A stretch of DNA of 50,355 nt from Candidatus Parvarchaeota archaeon (GTDB lineage Archaea > Nanobdellota > Nanobdellia > Parvarchaeales > Parvarchaeaceae), in assembly GCA_023378865.1 (NCBI GenBank), contig JAMCSP010000017.1:1-50355 (forward strand). Reading direction: 5' to 3'. The notes under the pieces were generated by a model, which was not told the DNA's origin, made no database searches, and worked only from the letters and a program-made list of their open reading frames with translations. The position numbers and the translations under genes are program-made. The stretch's first letter is position 1. Each line of letters opens with the position of its first letter. Positions 1,467-11,974 of the stretch are shown here, one piece after another.

Positions 1467-2846
1467 ATGGAAGAAATAGAATACAAAACAATTGAAAGGG
1501 TAACTAATGTTTTACTCTTTGTAAAAAGCGTAAAGAATGCGGGTTACAATGAGCAGGTTGAAATAGAGCTTGAAAACGGCAAAAAAGTAAGCGGTCAGGT
1601 CCTTGCAACGAATGAAGACGTAACCATAATACAGGTATTCGGTGAAACCACAGGAATGAACACACAAACTACAAAAGTAAGGTTTAAAGGAACCACCTTC
1701 AAAATGCCGGTCAGCGTGGACATGGTCGGTAGAGTATTTGATGGATTGGGTAGACCAAGAGATGGCGGTATACCTATCTTCAGTGATGAAAAGATGGACA
1801 TAAACGGAAGCCCGATAAATCCTTATGCAAGAGAGGAGCCTTCAGAATTTGTACAAACAGGCATATCATCAATAGACTGCATGAACACGCTAGTAAGGGG
1901 CCAGAAACTTCCAATATTCTCAGGTTCTGGTCTTGCACATAATAAGCTTGCTGCACAGATAGTAAAGCAGGCAAAGATACTTGCAGAAAAACAGAACTTC
2001 TACGTAGTTTTCGGTGGTATAGGGATAAACAGTGAGGATGCAAACTTTTTCATAAACGAATTCCAAAACAGCGGCGCACTTGAAAGATCAGTGATATTTC
2101 TTAACCTCGCTGCTGAACCATCAATGGAAAGAGTCATTCTTCCAAGACTTGCATTAACAGCTGCAGAATACCTGGCATATGAAAAAAATGCACATGTAAT
2201 TGTCATACTTACAGACATGACAAATTATGCAGAAGCCCTGCGTGAAATTTCTGCAGCAAGAGACGAAGTACCCGGAAGAAGAGGTTATCCTGGATACATG
2301 TACACAGACCTTGCAAGCCTTTTTGAAAGAGCTGGAAAGGTGAAGGGAAAAGAAGGATCAATAACACAGCTGCCGATACTTACAATGCCCAGCGATGATA
2401 TAACTCACCCAATACCGGATTTAACAGGCTACATTACGGAAGGACAGATAGTACTTAGCAGAGCTTTGGATAAAAGCGGAATTTATCCGGGCGTTGACGT
2501 ACTTCTTTCATTGTCAAGGCTTATGAACCAGGGAATTGGAAAAGATTCAACAAGAGAAGACCACAGAAACGTTTCAGATCAGTTATATGCAGCATATGCA
2601 AAAGGGAAAGAACTTAGAAGCCTGACAGAAATAGTCGGTGAAGACGCGTTAAGCAAGATAGACAAGCAGTACCTGCATTTTGCCGAAGAATTTGAAAACA
2701 GGTTCATAAAACAGGGATTCAATGAAGACAGAAGTATAAATGAGACTTTGGACCTTGGATGGGAGCTTTTAAGTAACATAGATAAAGGCGAAATGAAAAG
2801 AATAAAACCTGAATTTATAGAAAAATACGGCAAATGGAAACAATAA
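1467..2846 (+). CDS. atpB: A-type ATP synthase subunit B
   Basis: [78 protein letters not shown]. Confidence 0.96.
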
Positions 2847-3445
2847 GAGTAACAAGAAGGGAATTGATTGAAACAAAGAGAAAGATAAAAACCGCAGACA
2901 GAGGTTTGCAGCTTCTGAAGATGAAAAGATCCTCTCTTATATTGGAATTTTTTGAGCTGGTAAAGCAGGTCCAAAGCATGAAAACAGATCTTAAAAAGGT
3001 TATGGACAGAAGCAGGGAAAGCATAGAAATAGCTGAGGCCCTAAGCGGCAGAATAACCATAGAGAGAGTGGCGCAGGAGCAAAGTGAAAAGCTTGCTAGC
3101 CTGAAGGCAAGAAATGTCATGGGTTTGCTGATACCAAATATAAATATGAATGAAACTGTTGATGTTCTCAGCAAAAGCGACAGCTTAACCATACCTACTC
3201 CTGTTTATGATGCAAAAAACATGTACTCTTCATTTCTTTCAATGCTTATAGAAATCGCCGAAAAGGAGACTGCAATGAGAAATTTACTAAATGAAATATA
3301 CAAATTAAACAGAAGAACAAATTCAATAGAGAATGTGATAATGCCCAGATGGAACGCCAAAATAAAATACATAAAACAAAGTTTAGATGATATGGAAAGA
3401 GACCGATTAGTATCAATTAAATTCATAAAGAGGCTACACAGCTGA
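2834..3445 (+). CDS. atpD: A-type ATP synthase subunit D
   Basis: Starts [32 protein letters not shown]; conserved subunit D N-terminus; position after B. Confidence 0.92.
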
Positions 3446-3762
3446 TGGAATCGCTTGAAACCCTGCAGAAAATAAGAGAAATAGAGGATTTGTCTGCAAA
3501 GAAAATAGAACAGGCACAGGAGAAAGCAAGCAAATTGATAGAAGAAACAGAAAAGCAAAACGAAGAAAAAATAAAAAAGGCCGAGAAGGAGGCACGCGAA
3601 ACGATTAACAGTGCAATAGATGAAGTAGAGAAGGAAACTGAAAAGCTTAGAGAAGAATCGCTAAAAGAGGCAAGCCAGAAAGCAGCTACTATAAAACCGC
3701 TTGATGAGAAGGATATGCTTAGTATATTTGAAGATGTCTTGAAGGAGGAATTTAAACTATAA
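3445..3762 (+). CDS. Coiled-coil A-type ATPase peripheral stalk subunit H-like
   Basis: 105-aa charged coiled coil (IEQAQEKASKLIEETEKQNEEKIKKAEKEAR) directly upstream of subunit I. Confidence 0.7.
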   Translation: MESLETLQKIREIEDLSAKKIEQAQEKASKLIEETEKQNEEKIKKAEKEARETINSAIDEVEKETEKLREESLKEASQKAATIKPLDEKDMLSIFEDVLKEEFKL

Positions 3763-9661: not shown

Positions 9662-9733
9662 GCCTAGGTGGCTCAGTGGCAAAGCGTCTCCTTGGTAAGG
9701 AGAAGATCGCGAGTCCGATTCTCGCCCTAGGCT
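9662..9733 (+). tRNA. tRNA-Thr(GGT)
   Basis: gcctagg/cctaggc acceptor; TCTCC-TTGGTAA-GGAGA anticodon arm. Confidence 0.93.
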
Positions 9734-9740
9734 TATTTTT

Positions 9741-11843
9741 TTATTTATACATGCAATTATTTTGCAGTGAATAGTATATATTTTGCTGGCTTCCGCTTGG
9801 CAATGTTCCATTTCCCATACAGGGATAATATGTGTTTCCATTGTAAACTATTTTAGAACTGTTAAAGAATGAATTTTCATTAGTAGTGCTGAAATTTATT
9901 ATATTTGATGAAGAGGATTTAGCTATCCCTGCATATTTGACTGACCATAACACGCCTGCAGGCAAACCATGTTCTATAAAACTACTTGTGCAATTATACA
10001 CAGGAGAAAATACTATTGATTGTTCACTGCCAGTAGAAAGACTCCCACTGACCACACTTGGAGTATAATTTATTAAACACCCAGTATGAAGGTATTCCAG
10101 TGTAGGATAAAGCACGGTAAAACTGTTTGAACCTGTGGAAGAAAGAAACGTAATGGCAGAAGAATTTGATTCCTTTATATTTCCGTTATAATCTACACTC
10201 CAGTTCAGTCCATACGGTATACCTGTTTCATGGAAAGTAGCAAAACCTAAATTGCATGATGAGCTTGTTGAATACTGTACTTTAAAAATTGAACCTGCGG
10301 CAACGTAGCCGGATAATGGACAGGGGTAGTATGTACTACCTCCATAACTCACAGAATTTGCAGAGAAAGAGTAGTACCCTGGTGAATTAACAAACGTTAT
10401 ATTGGAACTGTATAATTCAGTTTTTTCTACTCCGTTTAATAAAACCGACCATGATGATCCGGAAGGAAGCCCTGCTTCTTGAAATGTTGTATAACATGTT
10501 TCAGATTCCCCATAAAACAAAGGTAGTGATGAACCTGATGAAAGGGTACCTGTAGACTGAACAGAGTACTTGTCAACACAGCCACTTGAATTCACGGATG
10601 GCTGAGCCACTATATATGAATAACTTCCGGTGGCAGTTGTAAAAGATATAAAACTTGACGTTGATGACACATTTGAACCGTCAAAATCTACCCACCACTT
10701 TGTTCCATAAGGTAATTGAAAAGCATCAAATATGGTCGTGCATACATTATTTGAATTGCAACTGTCTTCTGTAATAGCACTGCTCCAGTTTCCTATCTGT
10801 TCTACCGATATATTTGCAGGATTTGCCGGATCATAGGTAATATTGCTATAAGGCAGTATATTTTCTGAACTGTTCTCAGGAGTCCACGCTGTAACGTTCC
10901 AGTAACTAGATACAGGAAGCGCTCCTTTAACATCCAATGCACTTATTCCTCCAGAACAAATATTTGTCCAATCAACTGCTAATTCATACTCTCCGGGGGA
11001 AACATCTTCGGTTATCGGGCCAAAATGGCCTGCCGAATTACCTTCCCATGCAGTATCACCAAATACACTCGTCCATGCACCTCCCGGTAACGGTCTGTAA
11101 AAAACAGTAGTTCCATCATTTGTAAGAATCTCAAAGCTAACACCACTAGATAGGTATACGTCAGTAACGGCTGTATACCCTTGCGTATTATAAGGTTTTC
11201 CGCAGTCTACTAACCCATTATTTAAATCGCTCAATGAATTTGGAAACGGCAACGCAACTTTTCCTATAAAAACTCCGTTTGCATAATATTCCTGCGTTTG
11301 GAAGTTAACACCTATATAGGGGGTTGCGAATGCATACGCCACTGAAAACAAGTTTCTAACCTCCGTTGGTGCAGAACTAAGGTTTCGCGTAAAAATACCA
11401 TAGAGCGTGCCTTGAGCTACACCAGGCTCCTGTAATGCATTGTCAGGCAGATAATAATCTATCGTCATTTTTATACTGTATGTTGAGCCGCCAGTATAGG
11501 GACACGCATTTAACAGTGGAATAAGTAACTGCTCACCGTTTCTTACTGTAAAATCTACATTCCTGGATATAGTAGATCCATTTTGGAGAGTCATATTTAT
11601 TTTATTTATAGTTATAAGATGCCCCTCCGAATTGCCTACTATTATAAATAAACCTATATTCTGAAGGCATGTCTGACTGAGTATTGGCATACCTGCAAAC
11701 CCAGAATAACCGGCTGTAACATTAGCAGACGGATTAAATATTCCAAGATAATAAAGGGTAACGGCAACAATTACAATTATAAATATGGCCCAGCCATAGG
11801 TCATCATGTATTCCAATGCAGACTGTGCTTTGTGTATAACCAT
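9741..11843 (-). CDS. Class III signal peptide (pilin-like) secreted surface protein with four C-terminal ~80-aa repeats
   Basis: N-terminus HKAQSALEYMMTYGWAIFIIVIVAVTLYYLG; repeats with [F]xExG[LI]PxGxxWSVxxxG and terminal Cys; many NxS/T sequons. Confidence 0.88.
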   Translation of the reverse strand: MVIHKAQSALEYMMTYGWAIFIIVIVAVTLYYLGIFNPSANVTAGYSGFAGMPILSQTCLQNIGLFIIVGNSEGHLITINKINMTLQNGSTISRNVDFTVRNGEQLLIPLLNACPYTGGSTYSIKMTIDYYLPDNALQEPGVAQGTLYGIFTRNLSSAPTEVRNLFSVAYAFATPYIGVNFQTQEYYANGVFIGKVALPFPNSLSDLNNGLVDCGKPYNTQGYTAVTDVYLSSGVSFEILTNDGTTVFYRPLPGGAWTSVFGDTAWEGNSAGHFGPITEDVSPGEYELAVDWTNICSGGISALDVKGALPVSSYWNVTAWTPENSSENILPYSNITYDPANPANISVEQIGNWSSAITEDSCNSNNVCTTIFDAFQLPYGTKWWVDFDGSNVSSTSSFISFTTATGSYSYIVAQPSVNSSGCVDKYSVQSTGTLSSGSSLPLFYGESETCYTTFQEAGLPSGSSWSVLLNGVEKTELYSSNITFVNSPGYYSFSANSVSYGGSTYYPCPLSGYVAAGSIFKVQYSTSSSCNLGFATFHETGIPYGLNWSVDYNGNIKESNSSAITFLSSTGSNSFTVLYPTLEYLHTGCLINYTPSVVSGSLSTGSEQSIVFSPVYNCTSSFIEHGLPAGVLWSVKYAGIAKSSSSNIINFSTTNENSFFNSSKIVYNGNTYYPCMGNGTLPSGSQQNIYYSLQNNCMYK
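9753..10739 (-). repeat. Four tandem degenerate ~79-88 aa protein repeats within the pilin-like gene
   Basis: TTIFDAFQLPYGTKWWVDFDG / YTTFQEAGLPSGSSWSVLLNG / FATFHETGIPYGLNWSVDYNG / TSSFIEHGLPAGVLWSVKYAG. Confidence 0.88.
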
Positions 11844-11974
11844 AATACGATTATACAGAGCAATTTATTTAATAATTGCAGCCCAGACCTATATCAACCG
11901 GAAATACGGGTATGCGAATAAAAATAGGCACAATTTCATTACTTACGTAATTATAGCTAACAATGTCTAGTTTT

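Follow-up and report, generated by a model that had tools for sequence, protein, structure and literature searches.

Can a protein of 700 residues with a pilin-like start and a long tail of repeats be a pilus subunit, and what would the tail do? The question arises from a 50,355-nucleotide stretch of DNA (the window) from a genome of a Parvarchaeota (ARMAN-4/5-type) genus. The genome measures 0.81 Mb, and the gene lies on its contig 17. The lifestyle presumed for Parvarchaeota-family archaea is one of contact with other archaea, and pili-like structures have been described between cells of ARMAN and of Thermoplasmatales (PMC5864196). These structures have been reported for more than a decade; we found no paper that names a protein in them.

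The open reading frame at 9741-11843 (minus strand) has no internal stop, and its translation opens with MVIHKAQSALEYMMTYGWA. Sequence comparison and structure modeling show a protein that begins with a predicted pilin N-terminus, helix, and head, continues with a beta domain in its middle, and ends in four Cys-paired beta-sandwich repeats. We interpret it, with a probability of about 0.6, as a modular archaeal type IV pilin, in which a stapled stalk would carry an adhesive subunit for contact with a host or biofilm. Its features are these:

9741..11843, minus strand: coding sequence of the modular pilin P0001, 700 aa (ORF translation and relatives of the same layout)
11826..11843, minus strand: short leader MVIHKA with a predicted class III cleavage at A6/Q7 (KA/QSALE, Glu at +5), from sequence
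11745..11819, minus strand: N-terminal hydrophobic helix, aa 9-33, the putative filament-core helix (AlphaFold helix 9-33 and identity to a short pilin)
11394..11711, minus strand: pilin beta head, aa 45-150 (AlphaFold strands and Foldseek match 8fk7)
10779..11318, minus strand: middle beta domain, aa 176-355, about 180 aa (46-49% identical segments elsewhere; moderate AlphaFold confidence)
10494..10742, minus strand: repeat 1, aa 368-450, Cys 368/422/450 (leave-one-out profile and AlphaFold, as for repeats 2-4)
10254..10496, minus strand: repeat 2, aa 450-530, Cys 450/508/530
9990..10256, minus strand: repeat 3, aa 530-618, Cys 530/589/618
9744..9992, minus strand: repeat 4, aa 618-700, Cys 618/675/697

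Pilin module, machinery, and sister proteins

The N-terminus, MVIHKA/QSALEYMMTYGWAIFIIVIVAVTLYYLG, has a basic residue, an Ala before Gln, Glu at +5, and a hydrophobic helix, and AlphaFold places that helix at aa 9-33; the class III-type start proposed by the first-pass annotation is thus borne out. The segment QSALEYMMTYGWA is conserved among paralogs. The same genome encodes a short pilin of 159 aa whose residues 1-57 are 65% identical to aa 3-59 of the 700-aa protein. AlphaFold and Foldseek assign the archaeal type IV pilin fold, a helix followed by a beta head, with a match to the Pyrobaculum calidifontis archaeal type IV pilus (8fk7, probability 1.00, target TM 0.45). That flagellar-like pilus has a signal of the class III type, a helix, and a beta head as well, but ordinary archaeal type IV pilins are about 130-160 aa long and have no repeat array. 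The Pfam model PF04021 (Class_IIIsignal) matched nothing genome-wide, whereas it did match a Methanocaldococcus jannaschii control; the protein is accordingly not filed under this model, a point against the pilin reading.

The pilin reading had been made to depend on a class III peptidase, and the genome encodes one Peptidase_A24 (GxGD prepilin peptidase) with a GGGD motif. A single cluster encodes a T2SSE ATPase together with two T2SSF proteins (platform halves), which completes the set of prepilin peptidase, assembly ATPase, and platform expected for an archaeal type IV pilin. The prepilin peptidase is present in 30 of 32 Parvarchaeaceae genomes.

The 700-aa pilin gene is solitary. It lies outside the pilus operon, and its neighbors differ among relatives. 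Full-length relatives that keep the layout occur in four congeners (L002, L003, L004, and L005) at 43-63% identity. The L003 ortholog (1495-3557), at a contig end, has its pilin N-terminus in a different frame, reflecting a frameshift or an assembly error. A broken gene was considered for L002 and dismissed; the reported stop is out of frame before the end of the gene, which is intact. Next to the stop codon in the window, about 8 bases away, is a predicted tRNA-Thr gene (anticodon ggt, 9662-9733, plus strand). An AT-rich TATA-like stretch (11864-11875) lies about 20-32 bases upstream of the start codon and is compatible with a leaderless transcript.

Six long pilins were found in the genome (700, 713, at least 870, 1124, 1225, and 1761 aa), all of them with repeats, while the short pilins have none. 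Two of the six are near the peptidase gene, and of the 30 peptidase genes in Parvarchaeaceae, 12 adjoin a gene for a repeat-bearing pilin. Related giants of 3975 and 1117 aa combine the repeats with an ordinary membrane anchor and have no pilin domain, so the repeats do not require a pilus. Each module also occurs without the other, and the non-pilin module follows the pilin module, as expected of a modular pilin. The observation of a large pilin with four Cys repeats was confirmed, and its interpretation is supported in part, by the repeat fold and the peptidase; the label "unusual" fits the lineage and not the gene, since the six long pilins share one plan.

DUF2341 has been proposed as a domain of tip adhesins in archaeal pilus loci, where it occurs on large proteins (PMC4858521). 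The giant near the peptidase gene has a DUF2341-like domain slightly below the Pfam cut-off, which favors the modular pilin reading. This likeness extends to the sister giants, whereas the 700-aa pilin has no DUF2341. Separately, the 3975-aa membrane-anchored protein (L026:4740-16667) has a DUF2341 domain that scores above the cut-off, in addition to about 32 repeats.

The middle of the protein had been described as a single region of about 330 aa. We found two parts instead. The first, at about aa 45-150, is the pilin head; the second, at about aa 176-355, is a domain of its own, which also occurs, at 46-49% identity, inside larger repeat proteins of 694-1770 aa. Pfam gave no match to this domain. 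A PA14-like identity, seen by eye, was dropped for want of Pfam support and because model confidence was just moderate.

Repeat array and cysteine pairing

Four tandem repeats of about 80 aa fill aa 368-700, with each boundary Cys common to neighboring repeats. When profiles were built with one repeat left out, the held-out repeats 1-4 scored 42.5, 46.9, 53.7, and 50.9 bits, against a maximum of 14.1 bits in 1000 shuffles of each. This excludes a chance origin and upholds the four repeats originally claimed. The internal Cys is likewise real, but where "most" repeats were said to have one, all four do (422, 508, 589, and 675). The protein has 14 Cys in total. At the DNA level there is no substantial repeat, and the likeness is one of protein sequence.

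AlphaFold, the check suggested for the repeat fold, returned confident all-beta modules for the four-repeat array (mean pLDDT 89) in an uncertain mutual arrangement (pTM 0.55). The best Foldseek matches were Gram-positive pilus and adhesin proteins (PitA, CNA B repeats), although whole-array TM-scores were low. Both are tandem beta-sandwich modules, but the Gram-positive stalk modules are sortase-linked and isopeptide-stapled, whereas the 700-aa protein has paired Cys and predicted type IV assembly. No credible Pfam or NCBIfam model matched the 700-aa protein, its repeats included; PDB sequence searches returned nothing credible, and no paper on the motif of the repeats turned up in a search of the literature. 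The repeats belong to an unnamed GLPxGxxW archaeal repeat family by their match to profile A1, which itself includes two of them.

Cysteine distinguishes the Parvarchaeaceae repeats, of which 321 of 335 have Cys and 266 of 335 have two or more. The Thermoplasmata repeats belong to the same family by profile but nearly lack it (2 of 51 have any and 1 of 51 has two or more) and are not on pilins in our sample. The Cys pair is thus essentially specific to Parvarchaeaceae. In a set of 322 distinct Parvarchaeaceae repeats, an internal Cys tends to be accompanied by the Cys that closes the repeat (odds ratio 20, p about 1e-20, a value that overstates the case because mutually related repeats are counted as independent). 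It shows no co-occurrence with the repeat-starting Cys in the same set (p = 0.76). This pattern points to a bond between neighboring last strands, and in most repeats of the family the likeliest staple would join the internal Cys to the repeat-ending Cys. Repeats 2 and 4 depart from this arrangement, both in the 700-aa protein and in its relatives: their internal Cys sits five residues beyond its usual place in the family. Of the disulfide-stapled beta-sandwich modules proposed at first pass, the beta modules are supported by AlphaFold and the staple by Cys co-occurrence rather than by coordinates.

Occurrence of the repeat among archaea

Profile searches found 90 repeat copies in the source genome, and 31 of the 32 Parvarchaeaceae genomes contain matches. 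Across a phylum sample of 194 genomes, 10 matched; seven belong to the same genus as the source, and the other three matches are weak, all with internal stop codons. Beyond the family, the repeat hardly occurs in the phylum. It was found in 14 of 116 genomes of a Thermoplasmata-centered phylum sample and in 40 of 146 of a Micrarchaeota-centered one, and four Thermoplasmata genomes hold 30-88 copies each. The proposed occurrence of GLPxGxxWSV repeats in acidophilic archaea therefore holds for Thermoplasmata and Micrarchaeota. Carriers in Thermoplasmata include thermopsin, beta-propeller, and ice-binding-like proteins; one protein (L066:1504-4284) combines the repeat with a beta-propeller.

Two sequences filed as Micrarchaeota (L109:1-3234 and L041:3-4286) have Cys-type repeats that are 67-91% identical to, and largely collinear with, Parvarchaeaceae giants, more weakly so for the last two L041 repeats. 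Their contigs are probably misbinned, the alternative being a very recent transfer, and we therefore excluded both as evidence of sharing. Sharing across phyla, together with the gap in the rest of the phylum, suggests that the repeat was transferred between cohabiting acidophiles, in whichever direction.

Candidate function and rival readings

Modular type IV pilins are known from bacteria. In Streptococcus sanguinis PilB, for example, a bulky module lies C-terminal to a small pilin module and is expected to be tip-exposed and adhesive; the most extreme case in the bacterial survey is 860 aa long (PMC8179133). The 700-aa protein has its non-pilin module on the same side. It differs in being archaeal, in its graft, a Cys repeat array with no Pfam match, and in having sisters of up to 1761 aa.

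If the protein is assembled as a modular pilin, the prepilin peptidase would remove the six-residue leader, and the ATPase and platform would insert the subunit into a filament alongside short pilins. Its place would most likely be at or near the filament tip, given a C-terminal part about three times as large as a pilin. From there, the repeat array could project as a disulfide-stapled, acid-stable arm that may contact partner cells or matrix. Since the module is nearly absent from the rest of its own phylum and abundant in the kind of archaea that these cells touch, the array probably works as an adhesive arm in cell contact, although the distribution would also fit use in a shared habitat. 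The arm may have a role in host contact, and contact with Thermoplasmatales would fit the pili-like ARMAN-Thermoplasmatales structures (PMC5864196).

The arm of a modular pilin could also serve self-adhesion, biofilm, or S-layer-like scaffolding, with no contact with a host species. We regard this as quite possible, and self-adhesion or a coat function as a serious rival to host binding. The Foldseek resemblance to stalk modules favors it, no ligand-binding domain was identified in the 700-aa protein, and the extreme copy number of 90 per genome suits structural use. What speaks against it is the presence of the repeat in co-occurring acidophiles despite its near-absence from the phylum, a pattern that does not separate host contact from shared habitat. 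The pilin-like helix might, on the other hand, be a permanent membrane anchor that never enters a filament, with the repeats forming a coat or a short arm. The solitary gene, the unrelated neighbors of its relatives, and the repeat giants held by simple transmembrane segments agree with such a surface protein. However, the KA/QSALE processing site is conserved, the N-terminus closely matches that of a short pilin, sister proteins adjoin the peptidase gene, and pilin genes standing alone are common in archaea (PMC4858521), so we consider a permanent anchor unlikely.

A reading of the repeats as CnaB-type pilin domains with isopeptide staples is highly improbable. The Foldseek neighbors of the repeats include CnaB-type pilins, but of the conserved Lys, Asn/Asp, and catalytic acid that define such domains, the repeat profile lacks the Lys column and has a conserved Cys pair instead. 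We give little credence to a more elaborate scenario, in which the module was taken from host acidophiles, stapled, multiplied to about 90 copies per 0.8 Mb, and grafted onto pilins, allowing like-to-like contact with host surface proteins.

Returning to the modular pilin, the long pilins with repeats, along with their membrane-anchored relatives, occur in nearly all Parvarchaeaceae genomes and are candidates for the contact structures. With them, the modular pilins surveyed in bacteria gain an archaeal lineage, and a repeat family with no Pfam model comes to light that unrelated archaea of acid habitats share. The 700-aa protein also contains 19 N-glycosylation sequons, a mild enrichment over shuffled sequences (12.2 +/- 3.0).
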